Position numbers and translations under genes: made by a program. The notes beneath the pieces were generated by a model. It was not told where the DNA came from, did not search any database, and was given only the letters and a program-made list of their open reading frames with translations. Below are positions 7,849 to 27,963 of a stretch of 64,000 nt of DNA, piece after piece (position 1 is the stretch's first letter; the number at the start of each line of letters is the position of its first letter). The stretch is from Bacteroidota bacterium. GTDB taxonomy: Bacteria; Bacteroidota; Bacteroidia; NS11-12g; UBA9320. Location: the NCBI GenBank assembly GCA_947468275.1, contig CANIKO010000003.1, forward strand, positions 1 to 64,000. The letters are read 5' to 3'.

Positions 7849-8313
7849 ATGAGCCTACCTGATAATTTGGATATTGCTATCCTCAACATTCTTCAAAATG
7901 ATTCGACCATTACGGTAAAAGAAATTGCTGAAAAAATTGGTCTTTCGGCAACACCAACCTATGAGCGTGTTAAGCGGATGGAACAAAATAAAATTATCAC
8001 TAAATATGTCGCTTTAGTGGATAGAGAAAAAGTTGGATTAAGCTTACTCGTGTATTGCAATATTGTTTTGAAAGAACAATCCAAAAAGGAATTAATGAGT
8101 TTTGAAAATTCAGTTTTAAAAATGCCCGAAGTGCTTGAAGTTATTAGCATTTCAGGTACGTATGATTACATGCTAAAAATTGTTGCAAAAGATATTTCTT
8201 CTTATAACGATTTCGTGGTTAATGTAATTTCAAATATTCCAAATATTGGGCAATACCACAGCAGTATTGTTTTAAATGAGGTAAAAAGAGAAACCGCACT
8301 TAAGATTCTATAA
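7849..8313 (+). CDS. Lrp/AsnC family transcriptional regulator
   Basis: The 154-residue product has the usual length and layout of the family: an N-terminal AsnC-type winged helix (about residues 4-60, LDIAILNILQNDSTITVKEI) and a C-terminal RAM ligand-binding domain (about 65-150, ending in the typical SSIVLNEVK strand). Such proteins bind DNA as dimers or octamers and sense amino acids. It is transcribed towards the arginine gene cluster, and its last bases overlap the tail of the decayed argH on the other strand. Control of the arginine genes or of an amino acid response is a reasonable inference from position, but no operator was identified. Confidence 0.9.
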   Translation: MSLPDNLDIAILNILQNDSTITVKEIAEKIGLSATPTYERVKRMEQNKIITKYVALVDREKVGLSLLVYCNIVLKEQSKKELMSFENSVLKMPEVLEVISISGTYDYMLKIVAKDISSYNDFVVNVISNIPNIGQYHSSIVLNEVKRETALKIL

Positions 8314-8966
8314 GTTCTGTTTGTTTAAAATAGTTTCTATCGCACTATTAAATTCTATCACAATCTGATCGTTGCATAAATTACCTATGCTCCCTTCGTG
8401 GGTGTGATTCATTTGTTTTGACGGATGAAAGTTTCCAGCATCCATTTTTGCCCCTATCTTTTTATAGGCATCGCTAATTGTTAGTGTGTGTATCCCGGTA
8501 GATATTTTTCTTTATGGACTTCACTTAATTCAATTAACAATTTAAAAAGTGGTTCGATGTGCCCCGTTATTTCCCGTATTTGGTGGCGAAGGAATAGTTT
8601 TATATCCAATAATATTTGATCATTTCTTGATCTTGCACTATGTATTTTTTTACCTGCTTCGCCAATTCGTTCCGTTAATAAAAATTCTATTTGGGAATGA
8701 ATATCTTCTATTCCATCATCAATTATAAAATTTCCTGATTTAATTTCACCCAAGATGTTTTTTAATTATTACTCAACGGATTTCCATTCGTTAGTTGTTA
8801 GTAAGCCAACAGTTTCTAGCATTTCGGCATGAGCCAAAGAGCCTATTATATCAAATTCGGCTAATTGCAAATCAAACTTTGTATCCTCCCCAACCGTAAA
8901 TTTTTCAATTATTTTAGCATATTGATTAGCTGAGTCATTATCTTTATGCCATATTTTTTTGCTTAT
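8308..8966 (-). pseudogene. argH: argininosuccinate lyase remnant (argH)
   Basis: Three blocks of argininosuccinate lyase lie in order at the end of the arginine operon. Block one (8774-8960) reads IWHKDNDSANQYAKIIEKF and continues to NEWKSVE, then hits two consecutive TAA codons (8766-8771). Block two (8481-8765, same frame) holds the conserved HSARSRNDQ segment and ends at LPGYTH plus a stop. Block three, in another frame, resumes at TLTISDAYKKIG and keeps the HTHEGSIGN motif to the C-terminus. The middle of the enzyme, including the GSSxMPxKxNP signature loop, is missing, so about half of a normal 440-460 residue enzyme is gone. No ATG remains at the start (ATA at 8964-8966). It cannot make active ArgH. 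Confidence 0.9.
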
Positions 8967-8968
8967 AT

Positions 8969-10060
8969 TTAAATAATTTGTAAAAGCATTTTTATGTAAA
9001 GCTCTATCCCTTCATTCACCTCATCGATAAAAATAAACTCATCACTGCTGTGGGAACGCAATGAATTTCCTGGGCCTATTTTTACGGAAGGGAAATTCAT
9101 GACGGCCATATCGGAAGTGGTTGGACTTCCATATGTTGATTTCCCTAAGTGGATACCAGCTTTTACAAATGGATGATGAATGTCTATGGATGAAGGATTT
9201 AAACGCAACGACCGTTCCTTTATCTCGCTGCTAATATTCCCGCGGACTATTTCAATTACCTCCCGATTGCTGTATACTTCTGTGGTGCGAATATCAACTG
9301 TAAATTCACATTGGTCGGGAATAATGTTGTGCAGGATGCCTGATTTAATCATCGTAACACTCATTTTAACATCACCTAGCAAGTCTGATTTTTTAGGATA
9401 TTTAAAGGAGTTGAACCATTCAATATCTTTCATCGCATTAATAATTGCATTATCCAAATTATTATGTGCAGCATGCGATGATGTGCCTTTTGCAACGCAA
9501 TCAATGACTAGCAAGCCTTTTTCAGCAATTGCCAAATTCATCTCAGTGGGTTCACCAACAATCGCAAAATCAATATTGCCTAATTTTTCAAGAATTGAAG
9601 CTACGCCGCTGTCGCCTGAATTCTCTTCCTCAGCAGTTGCAGCAAAAATGATATTGTATTTTAAGTTTTCCATTTGATAGAAAAATACAAATGCGTACAT
9701 TAAACTCACCAAGGCGCCACCTGCATCATTGCTGCCCAATCCAAATAGTTTTTTTTCATTTTCTATTGGCTCAAATGGGTTAAGCGTATAACCTGAATTG
9801 GGTTTAACCGTGTCGTGATGAGAATTTAGAAGGATAGTAGGTAAGTTTGGATTATAAAATTTATTCCTTACCCAAACATTATTTCCTTGTCTAAATGTTT
9901 CAATTTTCTTTTGTTGTAAAGAATGTTCAATCCAATCGGCCGTAAAGTTTTCTTCTTTGCTGAATGAAGGAATGGAGATTAATTTTTTCAGTAAATCAAT
10001 AGCTTCCTGTTTAATTTCACCTAGAAAAATTGGATTAGAGAGTGAGGTAAGTTCCTTCAT
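8969..10060 (-). CDS. argE: acetylornithine deacetylase, M20 metallopeptidase family
   Basis: A 363-residue M20 family enzyme. It should hydrolyse N-acetylornithine to ornithine and acetate in the cytoplasm with two metal ions. The metal-binding motifs are visible: SHHDTVKP near residue 82, the Asp of GLGSNDAGGA near 112, the Glu pair of ATAEEENSGD near 144, and VGEPTE near 169. The middle dimerisation domain follows (AKGTSSHAAH). It overlaps the end of argB by 26 bases, which points to coupled translation. In related Bacteroidota operons this gene precedes argH, and here the argH remnant follows directly. Confidence 0.88.
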   Translation of the reverse strand: MKELTSLSNPIFLGEIKQEAIDLLKKLISIPSFSKEENFTADWIEHSLQQKKIETFRQGNNVWVRNKFYNPNLPTILLNSHHDTVKPNSGYTLNPFEPIENEKKLFGLGSNDAGGALVSLMYAFVFFYQMENLKYNIIFAATAEEENSGDSGVASILEKLGNIDFAIVGEPTEMNLAIAEKGLLVIDCVAKGTSSHAAHNNLDNAIINAMKDIEWFNSFKYPKKSDLLGDVKMSVTMIKSGILHNIIPDQCEFTVDIRTTEVYSNREVIEIVRGNISSEIKERSLRLNPSSIDIHHPFVKAGIHLGKSTYGSPTTSDMAVMNFPSVKIGPGNSLRSHSSDEFIFIDEVNEGIELYIKMLLQII

Positions 10061-10835
10061 TTTTTATTTTTTTTGTTATATTTAGAATAGCGTTGGCATG
10101 TAAAATTGCAACTGTGGTTACGCCATTTTTAACGGCATTAAACCCATTATCTAATTTTGGAATCATGCCTTGCGAAACGACATTGTTTCTAATAAGCAAC
10201 TCATAATCACTCGCAGAAATATTTGGAATTACTGAATTTTCATCCTCTATATTTTTCATCACTCCCTTTTTTTCAAAACAATAATTCAAATGCACTTCGT
10301 ATTGAGTGGCCATTGCCATTGACAATGCAGAAGCCAGCGTATCGGCATTGGTATTAAATAGTTGTCCATTGTTATCATGTGTAATTGAACAAAACACTGG
10401 TACAATAAAACTCTTAACGAGGGAAGAAATAAATGAAGTGTTAATTCCTCCTTCTATAATATCCCCAACAAATCCGAAATCATGTGTTGCATTGATTCTT
10501 TTTTTTGCTTGTATACAATTGTTATCCGCGCCAGAAAGCCCAATTGCATTATTTGAATTTGATTGCAGTAATGCTACAATATTTTTATTGATTAATCCGG
10601 CATAAACCATGGTAATCAGCTGCAAAGTATTTGCATCTGTAACTCTTCTGCCATCTATCATTTTTTGCTGAATACCTAGTTTTAGTGCTAAATCATCCGC
10701 TAGTTTACCGCCGCCATGAACAATTATTTTTCTTGCCTTAATCGTAGAAACTTCCGAAATGAATTTCTTTAATTGTTCGTCATCATTAATAATATTTCCT
10801 CCTATTTTAATGATATAAAGTGGTTGCATATTCAT
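10035..10835 (-). CDS. argB: acetylglutamate kinase
   Basis: A 266-residue amino acid kinase family protein, normal for ArgB. It phosphorylates N-acetylglutamate (or an N-acyl analogue) with ATP in the second step of ornithine synthesis. The N-terminal KIGGNIIND and VHGGGKLADDLALKLG glycine loops bind ATP and substrate, and the GLSGADNN and FNTNADTLASALSMAM segments match the C-terminal ATP-binding half. The start ATG is 15 bases after argD, and the 3' end overlaps argE. In many Bacteroidota an argF-type carbamoyltransferase gene sits between argD and argB; it is absent here. Confidence 0.9.
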   Translation of the reverse strand: MNMQPLYIIKIGGNIINDDEQLKKFISEVSTIKARKIIVHGGGKLADDLALKLGIQQKMIDGRRVTDANTLQLITMVYAGLINKNIVALLQSNSNNAIGLSGADNNCIQAKKRINATHDFGFVGDIIEGGINTSFISSLVKSFIVPVFCSITHDNNGQLFNTNADTLASALSMAMATQYEVHLNYCFEKKGVMKNIEDENSVIPNISASDYELLIRNNVVSQGMIPKLDNGFNAVKNGVTTVAILHANAILNITKKIKNEGTYLTL

Positions 10836-10850
10836 TGGCTCGATTGCATT

Positions 10851-11996
10851 TTAGGATTTAACTAATTCTTTGTGCATTACATTCTTAAAGGCATGCACGA
10901 AAATGTCTGCTTCTGTTTTTTTGATGTTAAGTGCTGGCAAAATTCTTAAGGTGTATTTATTGGATGATGAGCCAGTTAATATTTTATGTTGCATCAAAAG
11001 TTCATTTCTTATTTCAGCGCATGCTGATTTTAATTCAATTCCAATCATCAATCCCATTCCTCTAATTTCTTTAATTCCTTCTATATCTTTTAATTGTTGC
11101 ATTAAATATTTTCCCATAGTACGTGCATTTTCAATCAGGTTTTCATTCTTCATCACGTCAAGCACAGCAATAGCGGAAACACAGGCTAAGTAATTGCCGC
11201 CAAAGGTGGTGCCCAGCATACCATAGCGCGCTTTGATATCCGGATGAATTAATACCCCTGCAACTGGGAACCCATTGCCCATGCCTTTTGCCACGGTTAT
11301 GATGTCAGCTTTTACTTCGGCATATTGATGTGCAAAAAAATTTCCGCTGCGTCCATAGCCCGATTGTATTTCATCACATATCATTAAAGCACCAAAAATT
11401 TTACAAAGAACTTGTATCTGTTTCAGAAAAGATGGCGATGGAATATTAACGCCACCAACACCCTGAATTCCTTCGATGATAACGGCAGCAATGTCATTTT
11501 CTGAAAATAGTTTGCTCAATGACTTTGCGTTATTCCATTCGCAAAAAATAATATTTTCCGTTTCATTTATAGGTGCAATGATGGATTTATCATCAGTGGC
11601 AGCTACTGCAGCCGATGTACGACCATGAAAGGATTTAGAAAATGCAATTATTTTTTTACGCCCTGTATGAAAGGATGCTAGTTTGAAAGCATTCTCATTG
11701 GCTTCGGCACCCGAATTACACAGAAACAAATTATAGTCATCATACCCACTTAATTTTCCTAATTTCTTTGCTAATTCTTCCTGTAAAGGGATTTTAACGG
11801 AATTAGAATAGAACCCGATGTGTCGCAATTGTTCTGTCATTTTTCTTACATATAGCGGGTGTGAATGCCCGATGGAAATCACGGCATGTCCACCATATAA
11901 GTCCAAATATTTTTCACCGTTTTCATTCCATATATAACTTCCCTCCGCTTTTGTTGGAATAATATTAAATAATGGATATACATCGAATAATTTCAT
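10851..11996 (-). CDS. argD: acetylornithine aminotransferase, class III PLP enzyme
   Basis: A 381-residue class III aminotransferase converting N-acetylglutamate semialdehyde to N-acetylornithine with glutamate as amino donor. Visible features are the substrate segment YGGHAVISIGHSHP, the PLP phosphate region NSGAEANENAFKLA, the DEIQSGYGRSG motif whose Asp contacts the PLP ring, and the PLP lysine in AKGMGNGFPVAG near residue 236. It lies 10 bases after argC and 15 before argB on the same strand. Related enzymes act on ornithine or succinylornithine, but the context favours the arginine pathway. Confidence 0.9.
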   Translation of the reverse strand: MKLFDVYPLFNIIPTKAEGSYIWNENGEKYLDLYGGHAVISIGHSHPLYVRKMTEQLRHIGFYSNSVKIPLQEELAKKLGKLSGYDDYNLFLCNSGAEANENAFKLASFHTGRKKIIAFSKSFHGRTSAAVAATDDKSIIAPINETENIIFCEWNNAKSLSKLFSENDIAAVIIEGIQGVGGVNIPSPSFLKQIQVLCKIFGALMICDEIQSGYGRSGNFFAHQYAEVKADIITVAKGMGNGFPVAGVLIHPDIKARYGMLGTTFGGNYLACVSAIAVLDVMKNENLIENARTMGKYLMQQLKDIEGIKEIRGMGLMIGIELKSACAEIRNELLMQHKILTGSSSNKYTLRILPALNIKKTEADIFVHAFKNVMHKELVKS

Positions 11997-12006
11997 GTCT
12001 TTTGTT

Positions 12007-12990
12007 TTAAAATGCTGATGCTTTTAGTTTTAAACCTGTGGTCTCTTCCAATCCAAATAACAAGTTCATGTTTTGAACAGCTTGTCCAGAAGCCCCTTTC
12101 AGGAGGTTGTCTATAGCACTTGCGATGAATAATTTATTGCCGTGATTTTCAAGATACAATAAACATTTATTGGTATTAACAACTTGTTTTAAATCAATGT
12201 TTGATTTGCTTATAAAAACAAAAGGATGGTTGGCATAAAATATTTCATACATAGAAATAGCATCTTCACTACTTAAATCACACTCTAAATAACAACTTGC
12301 AAAAATTCCTCTAGAATAATTTCCGCGATACGGAATAAAGCTGATGGTGTTTTTGAAATCGTTTTGAAGTTGGGCAATACTTTGATTAATTTCTTTTAAA
12401 TGCTGATGCTCAAATGCTTTATAAGTCGAAAAATTATTGTTCCGCCAGCTGAAATGTGATGTAGTGCTTAAGGATTGTCCAGCACCTGTGCTTCCTGTTG
12501 TTGCTGAAACATGAACTTCATTTTTTAGTAAATTATGGGCTGCCAACGGCAGCAATGCCAATTGAATACATGTGGCAAAACATCCAGGGTTTGCAATATG
12601 GGTGGCACTTTTAATTTGCTCTCGATTTAGTTCAGGTAAACCATAAACAAAGTTTTTTTCATTAAGCGATGAAGAAGATTGAATTCTAAAATCTTCACTT
12701 AAATCAATTATTCTGATGGTATTATTTATCTTATTTTCGGACAGTATTTGTTTGGCTTCGCCATGCGTTACGCATAAAAAAAGCACGTCAATGTCATCCA
12801 ATATAGAACTCGAAAATTTCAACTCAGTTTCACCAATCAAATCAGAATGGACTTGGTACACATATTTATTGCTATTGCTTTTGCTATGAATAAATAAAAT
12901 TTCAATGGAAGGATGATTTATTAATACTCGGATTAATTCACCTCCTGTATAGCCTGCCCCACCCATAATTCCTACTTTTATTTGTTCCAT
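12007..12990 (-). CDS. argC: N-acetyl-gamma-glutamyl-phosphate reductase
   Basis: A 327-residue NADPH-dependent reductase for the third step of ornithine synthesis. The Rossmann motif GIMGGAGYTGGELIR lies at the N-terminus, and the catalytic cysteine is in NPGCFATC near residue 135. TTGSTGAG and the histidine region near SYIPYRG-like text (here FIPYRGNYSRG) complete the family pattern. Its ATG overlaps the stop of the upstream acetyltransferase by one base (TAATG), so the two are translationally coupled. In many relatives argG lies between these two genes; it does not here. Confidence 0.92.
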   Translation of the reverse strand: MEQIKVGIMGGAGYTGGELIRVLINHPSIEILFIHSKSNSNKYVYQVHSDLIGETELKFSSSILDDIDVLFLCVTHGEAKQILSENKINNTIRIIDLSEDFRIQSSSSLNEKNFVYGLPELNREQIKSATHIANPGCFATCIQLALLPLAAHNLLKNEVHVSATTGSTGAGQSLSTTSHFSWRNNNFSTYKAFEHQHLKEINQSIAQLQNDFKNTISFIPYRGNYSRGIFASCYLECDLSSEDAISMYEIFYANHPFVFISKSNIDLKQVVNTNKCLLYLENHGNKLFIASAIDNLLKGASGQAVQNMNLLFGLEETTGLKLKASAF

Positions 12991-13577
12991 TAGGCCATTA
13001 GGGAGATTAATTTTGAATTATTGTTTTCGTTTACTTCTGATAAAGGGTCGAAAAGCAATGCTGTGCAAAGACAATTTTTCCTGTTTTTGCTTTGCAGTAT
13101 TTCCCAATTTATACAGCTTTTGCATCCCTCCCAAAATTTATCATCTTGGGTTATTTCTGAATAGATAACAGGCTCGTAGCCCATATTAGAATTTATTTTC
13201 ATTACGGCCGAACTCGTGGTTAGGCCAAATACTTTGGCGTTTGGGAATTTTAAACTCGACAAATTGAAAATTTCTGCCTTAATTTTTCGAGCCAACCCAT
13301 TTTTCCTAAATTGAGGGGCTATAATTAATCCCGAGTTAGAAACAAATTGGTCATTTTCCCAAGATTCGATGTAGCAAAAGCCGGCCCATTCTCCCATATC
13401 CGTTATGGCAATTACGGCTTTATCTTCTAAAATTTTTTGGATGATGAGTTCCGGTGTGCGCTTGGATATGCCGCTACCTCGTTGTTTGGCCGACGATTCT
13501 ATTTCTTTGCAGATTTGCTCTGCAAATTTGGTGTGGCACGCGTTTGCCTTCATTATTTCATACGAAAAGCCATTCAT
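12990..13577 (-). CDS. GNAT N-acetyltransferase of the arginine operon (ArgA-like)
   Basis: A 195-residue GNAT protein that heads the arginine operon. It resembles the Bacteroidota acetyltransferases that take the place of classical ArgA: AKQRGSGISKRTPELI near the N-terminus, an acetyl-CoA loop in APQFRKNGLARKIK, and a cysteine-rich tail (EGCKSCINWEIL, NCLCTALLFDP). It probably acylates glutamate to start ornithine synthesis, although no catalytic assay is implied by sequence. It ends one base inside argC. The ATG at 13575-13577 was taken as the start; a second in-frame ATG eight codons downstream is possible. Confidence 0.8.
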   Translation of the reverse strand: MNGFSYEIMKANACHTKFAEQICKEIESSAKQRGSGISKRTPELIIQKILEDKAVIAITDMGEWAGFCYIESWENDQFVSNSGLIIAPQFRKNGLARKIKAEIFNLSSLKFPNAKVFGLTTSSAVMKINSNMGYEPVIYSEITQDDKFWEGCKSCINWEILQSKNRKNCLCTALLFDPLSEVNENNNSKLISLMA

Positions 13578-27345: not shown

Positions 27346-27963
27346 ATGAAATACAATCCTCAAATTCATCATCGAAAGTCGATTCGGTTAAAAGGCTATG
27401 ACTATTCCCGAGAAGGATTATATTTTATAACAATTTGTTGTCACAATAGAGATTGTTTATTTGGGGAGATAATTGAGAATAATGATTTAATAAATCCAAC
27501 ACAACAAATGATTTTGAATGACGCCGGCAAAATTGCAATTGAATGTTGGTTGCAAATTCCTGAACATTTTCCAAATGTAATTTTGCATGAACATATTATT
27601 ATGCCCAATCACATTCATGGAATTATTGAATTGAATGGTTCGTTGGATTTTGGGGTTCAAAATGTAATGGTCCAAAACGTATGGGTTCAAAATTTTGAAC
27701 CCCTACCACCGACCCCGCCACCACAACCACCACCACGACAACAAAACGCATTTCAAAAAATAATTCCACGTTCCATTGGTTCAATAATTCGCGGATATAA
27801 AATTGGGGTAACAAAATGGTTTAGGAAAAACACAGACCTGCAAACCGTTTGGCAACGGAATTATTATGAACATATAATTCGGAATGAACAATCGTATCAA
27901 ACCATTGCCGAATACATAATTACCAATCCAGAGAAATGGAAGGACGATAAATTTTTTAAATAA
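27346..27963 (+). CDS. REP-associated tyrosine transposase (RAYT), Y1 Tnp family
   Basis: A 205-residue single-strand DNA transposase-like protein of the IS200/RAYT class. It has the family N-terminus (HHRKSIRLKGYDYSREGLYFITICCHNR), the HUH metal site in MPNHIHGII near residue 88, and the C-terminal block VWQRNYYEHIIRNE followed by IITNPEKW. Between them lies a low-complexity insertion (about residues 104-128) encoded by three 15-base tandem units (VQN repeats, 27655-27699) followed by a proline run; the third unit is the palindrome core itself. Such proteins mobilise or maintain short palindromic repeats rather than themselves. Palindromes lie on both sides. The predicted catalytic tyrosine was not assigned with certainty. 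Confidence 0.85.
   Translation: MKYNPQIHHRKSIRLKGYDYSREGLYFITICCHNRDCLFGEIIENNDLINPTQQMILNDAGKIAIECWLQIPEHFPNVILHEHIIMPNHIHGIIELNGSLDFGVQNVMVQNVWVQNFEPLPPTPPPQPPPRQQNAFQKIIPRSIGSIIRGYKIGVTKWFRKNTDLQTVWQRNYYEHIIRNEQSYQTIAEYIITNPEKWKDDKFFK
27683..27702. repeat. 20-bp palindrome core inside the RAYT coding sequence
   Basis: GGGTTCAAAATTTTGAACCC is a perfect palindrome and equals the central 20 bases of the element at 27269-27296. In frame it encodes the VQNFEP part of the variable loop. Confidence 0.92.

Follow-up and report, generated by a model that had tools for sequence, protein, structure and literature searches.

The 64,000-nucleotide stretch analysed in the present study (the window; bases 1-64000 of contig C3, CANIKO010000003.1) comes from the genome of a Bacteroidota bacterium (GCA_947468275.1, hereafter G000; GTDB lineage Bacteroidia, NS11-12g, UBA9320) and carries a Bacteroides-type arginine operon, that is, one of the type working through acylated intermediates, from which argG and the carbamoyltransferase gene argF' are missing and in which argH is dead. 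The other five genes of the operon, encoding a GNAT acyltransferase, ArgC, ArgD, ArgB and an ArgE-type deacylase, are intact, and we give an even chance to the possibility that their products still run as a shortened ornithine pathway, kept by selection for ornithine supply. The operon encodes a pathway cut short at its branch point: taken singly, its five intact genes would be annotated as arginine pathway genes, yet no gene was found that would permit arginine synthesis, and a bacterium that is, on the strength of its gene content, a well-supported arginine auxotroph retains the whole series of enzymes leading up to N-acylornithine.

The five intact genes

GNAT, argC, argD, argB and the argE-type gene are all complete reading frames on the minus strand, with 0 internal stops in 1537 codons. 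An earlier reading made from the letters of the window (the sequence-only reading) had called these genes intact and tightly spaced, and so they are: the GNAT stop and the argC start overlap in TAATG, 10 bp separate argC from argD and 15 bp argD from argB, and argB shares 26 bp with argE, so that the five-gene run contains two overlaps and no gap above 15 bp.

The first gene of the run (12990-13577) encodes a GNAT acyltransferase of 195 aa, a putative N-acylglutamate synthase, which gave no Pfam match at an E value of 0.001 and which owes its name to a 58% identity with the gene at the equivalent operon place in G037, a genome of the same order. Its C-terminus is shorter than that of the G037 protein. 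Next comes argC (12007-12990), for N-acyl-gamma-glutamyl-phosphate reductase, whose start, overlapping the GNAT stop, marks the place of argG in relatives; it scores 307 bits against TIGR01850, above the cut-off of 233.6, and argB (10035-10835), for N-acylglutamate kinase, likewise exceeds the cut-off of its model (TIGR00761, 175.8 bits against 151.3). Below their cut-offs are argD (10851-11996), for N-acylornithine aminotransferase, with 348 bits against 410 (TIGR00707), and the argE-type M20 deacylase (8969-10060), with 149 bits against 217.6 (TIGR01910). The nearest solved relative of this deacylase is 3ct9, an 'acetylornithine deacetylase' (E 7.6e-110).

Between argD and argB, the 15 bp junction (10836-10850, minus strand) is the place of the carbamoyltransferase gene in relatives. 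A five-codon ATG..TGA frame (10832-10850) is found there, its stop overlapping the argB start in ATGA, and the argF'-argB junction of G037 shows a like stop/start overlap. A scar of argF' would be a possible but weak reading of this small frame, and we set it aside as unsupported, the C-termini of ArgF' proteins being too variable.

The argH relic and the missing genes

Downstream of argE lies what is left of argH (8309-8957, minus strand), a recent pseudogene. When aligned with the 434-residue ArgH of G037, its N-terminal part (8466-8957) corresponds to residues 2-165, and its C-terminal part (8309-8484) begins in another frame at about residue 382 (residues 382-422 aligned at 8362-8484), with identities of 54-55%; the frame thus changes past a large gap in which about 210 middle codons are missing. 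No usual start codon is present, and the N-terminal part is interrupted by a tandem TAA TAA and by a third TAA after PGYTH. The sequence-only reading had recognised the lost start and the large internal deletion correctly and had counted two stops, one fewer than the three that the relic holds. Near-invariant positions, by which we mean positions whose constancy among other genomes is 97% or more (rows below 75% coverage or below 100 bits being dropped), are altered in the relic at 3 of 52 sites, two of them at a fragment edge, a rate above that of any of 46 other genomes and, for a dead gene, a low one. By a rough count, neutral change since the death of argH would amount to between one and a few percent. 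Convergent with the relic and touching its end is a gene for an Lrp/AsnC-type regulator (7849-8313); the gene that comes after argH in G037 is another one.

Both argG and a gene for the carbamoyltransferase, already reported as gone from the operon, are absent not just from the window but from the entire assembly (3.31 Mb in 32 contigs, 99.26% complete). The argG model (PF00764) had no match in G000 and matched in all 14 control genomes, the search with the OTC N-domain returned a single OTC-family gene, namely pyrB, and no knotted transcarbamylase whose residue 90 is S, P, A or V was found in G000. At the locus itself, tblastn detected no trace of argG or argF'. As for a second argH, the argH model found the relic and one other gene, the class II fumarase gene fumC. 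Arginine auxotrophy is predicted because argG, argF' and an intact argH are all absent from the genome; the sequence-only reading had proposed it unless copies existed elsewhere, and with intact argF, argG and argH looked for and not found in so complete an assembly, the proposal has gained support.

Pathway type and the deacylase step

The operon resembles the Bacteroides-type pathway of G037 and of its congener G049 in its order, GNAT-x-argC-argD-x-argB-argE-(argH), and in the identity of its proteins to those of G037 (44 to 63%). It differs from that pathway in having neither the carbamoyltransferase gene nor argG and in its argH pseudogene, and for these reasons it cannot make citrulline or arginine. 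Among solved transcarbamylases, the nearest to G037 ArgF' is 1js1 (E 3.5e-101), which we take to be the N-succinylornithine transcarbamylase of Bacteroides fragilis, and a serine of the G037 protein is aligned to Pro90 of 1js1. According to passages of PMC7311316, most Bacteroidetes appear to make arginine via succinylated intermediates, the carbamoyltransferase of the Bacteroides-type route uses N-succinylornithine, N-succinylcitrulline is the most likely substrate of the deacylase that follows, and S, P, A or V at residue 90 of the transcarbamylase goes with a succinyl preference; an N-succinylornithine transcarbamylase from Bacteroides fragilis is also described in part of PMC4581275. The acyl group in the operon of the relatives is therefore predicted to be succinyl, and the parent-route substrate of the G000 deacylase would most likely be N-succinylcitrulline.

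Since carbamoylation precedes deacylation on this route, the parent pathway does not normally pass through free ornithine. The sequence-only reading, in which all three missing or dead genes act after ornithine, was mistaken on this point, given that the carbamoyltransferase, as the route is outlined in the passages cited above, acts on N-succinylornithine ahead of the deacylase. With argF' lost, ornithine therefore arises only if ArgE cleaves N-acylornithine. This cleavage would be the key step of the ornithine reading, and the label of an 'ornithine half' given earlier to the operon describes the outcome correctly only on condition that N-acylornithine has become a substrate of ArgE. From the sister acetyl route, part of PMC1865377 describes a Xanthomonas ArgE that takes both acetylornithine and acetylcitrulline.

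Under the reading that we prefer, GNAT would acylate glutamate, ArgB and ArgC would convert the N-acylglutamate to the N-acyl semialdehyde, and ArgD would aminate the semialdehyde to N-acylornithine. ArgE, which otherwise most likely acts on N-acylcitrulline, would now hydrolyse N-acylornithine to free ornithine, and the module would be retained for the benefit of having ornithine without drawing on imported arginine. The enzymes of every step between glutamate and N-acylornithine have intact frames with conserved residues, GNAT being the reservation (see below), and the lesions all lie in genes acting after N-acylornithine.

Distribution and descent of the operon

Within the order, argG and argH were surveyed in 58 genomes, G000 included, and argC in 108. 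Four of the 58 genomes exceeded the argG cut-off, and the gene is genuine in two of them, G037 and G049, which both belong to one genus of the other family and in which full-length matches fall in 404-residue frames; the matches above the cut-off in G012 and G048 are GMP synthases and were rejected. For argH the cut-off was exceeded in G037 and G049 only, and for argC in 4 of the 108 genomes, namely G000, G037, G049 and G010.

Both G037 and G049 possess the full operon, GNAT-argG-argC-argD-argF'-argB-argE-argH. We further compared the surroundings of the closest ArgC genes at 80 named loci, the best among the matches listed; in this set, argG is present in the fetched stretch at 76 loci and lies between GNAT and argC at 74, argF' stands between argD and argB at 46 of the 47 loci that have argD followed by argB, and all eight genes occur in the above order at 38. 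G000 keeps the same eight-gene order for the genes that it has, with argG and argF' absent and argH dead. It had been stated that relatives usually carry the missing genes at those places, which is right in layout for Bacteroidota at large and does not apply to the order of G000 itself, mostly without the pathway. G000 is intermediate between genomes with the full operon and the remainder of its order, where the entire pathway is mostly lacking, and from the relatives we infer that argG and argF' were formerly at this very place in its line.

A tree of ArgC, ArgD, ArgB and ArgE (1273 columns), built from the 50 of 83 loci that have all four proteins at >60% coverage, placed G000, G037 and G049 in one clade with a support of 94/86 (85 in a quick run), which is under the 95 mark and comes with long branches. 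Descent within the order seems to be a better reading of the G000 operon than transfer. Horizontal gain of the operon in G000 is not required by the tree and is the less likely reading, though with support below 95 and long branches it keeps some probability.

At one of the compared loci, in a Labilibaculum metagenome-assembled genome (L108:8177-15263), GNAT, argG, argC, argD, argB, argE and argH are present and no argF' match was found in the locus; a classical ornithine carbamoyltransferase may be encoded elsewhere in that genome.

A second ornithine-only gene set in the family

G010, which belongs to another genus of the same family as G000, carries an argJ-argC-argD-argB cluster (L065:8634-12917, contig C26), in which argJ contains ten N. 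No argG, argF or argH was found in this genome, the matches to the respective models being GMP synthase, PyrB (aspartate carbamoyltransferase), FumC and PurB (adenylosuccinate lyase). The expected outcome is the same as in G000, from glutamate to ornithine without argF, argG and argH and within one family, but the two are not the same operon: in G010, ArgJ takes the place of GNAT and ArgE, and its ArgC, ArgD and ArgB are only 34%, 38% and 31% identical to those of G037. The set is of a different type from the G000 operon and is predicted to lead directly to free ornithine. By gene content, two of the four argC-bearing genomes of the order (G000 and G010) are thus ornithine-only, and the parallel offered by G010 is the best argument that the half operon of G000 exceeds a leftover. 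Contamination was considered as a source of the cluster and looks unlikely; the 44.7 kb contig also bears a gene with an apparent Bacteroidota-type secretion tail.

Further searches covered 25 genomes, a chosen subset of the 58 that are all at least 90% complete. The sole arginase-family match of G010 reaches 23.7 bits (cut-off 22) and covers under half of the domain, the match of G021 is similarly marginal, and each of the other 23 genomes has a match of at least 181 bits. G010 and G021 both keep ornithine aminotransferase, though neither has a strong arginase-family gene.

Selection or ongoing loss

The main rival explanation, to which we grant somewhat less than an even chance, regards the operon as a snapshot of ongoing loss: G000 would have become auxotrophic recently, the five intact genes would be next to decay, and nothing would maintain them. 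Selected ornithine supply is slightly ahead of it, because of the G010 set and because the lesions are confined to argH. In the relic, 3 of 205 codons are stops, against 0 of 1537 in the five genes, a contrast with a conditional p of 0.0016, or of 0.014 when the tandem TAA TAA is taken as one event. Also at odds with ongoing loss are the absence of any tblastn trace of argG and argF' next to intact, closely spaced neighbours, and the existence in the family of a second, unrelated ornithine-only set. When neutral change was simulated under an assumed mutation spectrum, the probability of finding no stop in the five genes was 0.27, 0.07, 0.0065 and <0.0005 at 0.5, 1, 2 and 3% substitutions, respectively. 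Near-invariant positions are altered at 1/90 in ArgC (28 of 82 other rows having an equal or higher rate), 2/80 in ArgD (3 of 65, near the edge of the range), 0/34 in ArgB (56 of 56) and 1/73 in ArgE (12 of 50), with ArgC, ArgB and ArgE inside the range of the other genomes; the median of the other rows is 0 for each of these four proteins, and the argD maximum of 0.605 is due to one outlier row.

A number of observations nevertheless weigh against selected ornithine supply. GNAT is altered at 6 of 45 near-invariant positions, a rate above that of any of 75 others, five of the six exchanges being mild; this marks either a functional shift or the onset of decay and disagrees with a simple story. 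The other genes had little time to decay, since argH itself is little degraded; if argG and argF' were situated elsewhere in the ancestor, which could be the case, their clean absence here would carry little information; argC exceeded the cut-off in 0 of the 6 congeners of G000 (one of them only 77% complete); and the G010 genome, from which the parallel is drawn, is only 90% complete. Furthermore, G000 can obtain ornithine from imported arginine, because an arginase is present (TIGR01229, 233.8 bits, cut-off 227.6), and the searches revealed no dedicated biosynthetic enzyme of G000 that would consume ornithine, ornithine decarboxylase not having been searched for. Several points speak for ongoing loss: the order is mostly without arginine synthesis (argC above the cut-off in 4 of 108 genomes and in 0 of 6 congeners, genuine argG in 2 of 58), argH died recently, its relic being still 54-55% identical to the G037 protein with 3 of 52 near-invariant positions altered, arginase supplies ornithine anyway, no dedicated consumer turned up, and GNAT is atypical.

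The remaining explanations are far less probable. The module might end at N-succinylornithine or N-acetylornithine, to be used or exported, with ArgE doing something else or nothing; according to passages of PMC7311316, a Bacteroides-type ArgE most likely uses the carbamoylated compound, but ArgE of G000 alters a mere 1/73 near-invariant positions, and the Xanthomonas enzyme accepts acetylornithine (part of PMC1865377); we hold this explanation to be improbable. Least credible of all is that arginine synthesis is complete after all, through genes outside the assembly or unknown enzymes, for although the assembly is in 32 contigs and Sodalis, a predicted arginine auxotroph, proved able to grow without arginine (in part of PMC6315101), all three genes would need to have been missed at 99.26% completeness, with argG unmatched while 14 of 14 controls match, pyrB as the only OTC-family gene and argH dead.

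Returning to a selected ornithine supply, we tentatively suggest, with somewhat less confidence than in either of the two main explanations, that an ornithine-only module may have arisen twice in one family of arginine-auxotrophic Bacteroidota, in G000 by the stripping of a succinyl-type operon of its carbamoyltransferase and arginine-forming genes, which would convert a route lacking free ornithine into a new one from N-acylornithine to ornithine, and in G010 by argJ-argC-argD-argB. A twofold origin, if true, would suggest that these bacteria use ornithine in a way not yet recognised.

Possible uses of ornithine

A need for ornithine in G000 is plausible, and several uses were considered. In the 25-genome set, ornithine aminotransferase exceeded the cut-off in all genomes, G000 included, ProA and ProC each in a single genome (G017, not G000), and ornithine cyclodeaminase in none, its model matching 8 of the 14 controls; a weak ProC match in G000 is a DUF2520 protein. 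Proline from ornithine, a use drawn from the 25/25 count for ornithine aminotransferase and the 1/25 count for ProA, was dropped in view of ProC at 1/25, outside G000, and of cyclodeaminase at 0/25. Apart from G017, the tested genomes look unable to make proline too, and ornithine would not serve as a proline precursor through known enzymes. In G017, proC and proA lie close together (G017:C1:1654701-1657458), neither gene being over the cut-off in the other 24 genomes, and proline synthesis was there either kept or regained.

Ornithine lipids had been put forward earlier as one possible use, with OlsBA or OlsF as the genes to look for. This suggestion found no support: the only OlsB-like gene of G000, and its sole PF13444 gene, is GlsB (442.7 bits, cut-off 300), which stands beside GlsA (334.7 bits, cut-off 260), and ornithine lipids were dropped for G000; G010 has no PF13444 match. 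The GlsB/GlsA glycine-lipid gene pair lies on the same contig as the window, at approximately 78970-80800 of contig C3 (L175:4970-6800). An agmatinase of G000 (227.7 bits, cut-off 174.3) points to a polyamine route that would start from arginine.

Comparison with known systems

If active, the G000 module would work like the linear ornithine pathway of E. coli (ArgA, B, C, D, E), in which the substrate is acylated, phosphorylated, reduced, transaminated and deacylated to ornithine. Unlike in E. coli, a short GNAT serves as the putative acylglutamate synthase of G000, succinyl is the predicted acyl group in the relatives, and ArgE belongs to a group most likely acting on acylcitrulline. Another likeness is found in Sodalis glossinidius, for which parts of PMC3091646 and PMC6315101 report recent lesions in the arginine pathway. 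In the former (2010), the lesions are placed in argA, argC, argD and argG, the ornithine-forming side thus included; in the latter (2019), most of those genes are revised to probably functional, and growth without arginine is described as reduced, not abolished. Among the titles listed by our searches of the open-access literature, none dealt with a Bacteroidota arginine operon reduced to an ornithine-only remnant, which is weak evidence of absence.

Should the module be active, it would exemplify in nature how gene loss can redirect an acyl-citrulline pathway of Bacteroidota towards free ornithine and would be, together with G010, one of a pair of independent cases that raise the question of what purpose ornithine serves in arginine auxotrophs. 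Should it be decaying, it would be a well-placed snapshot of a lineage losing a pathway that is missing from the majority of genomes in its order.

Elsewhere in the window, at 27346-27963, a gene encodes a 205-residue protein with a weak match to REP-associated tyrosine transposases (58.5 bits, cut-off 80).

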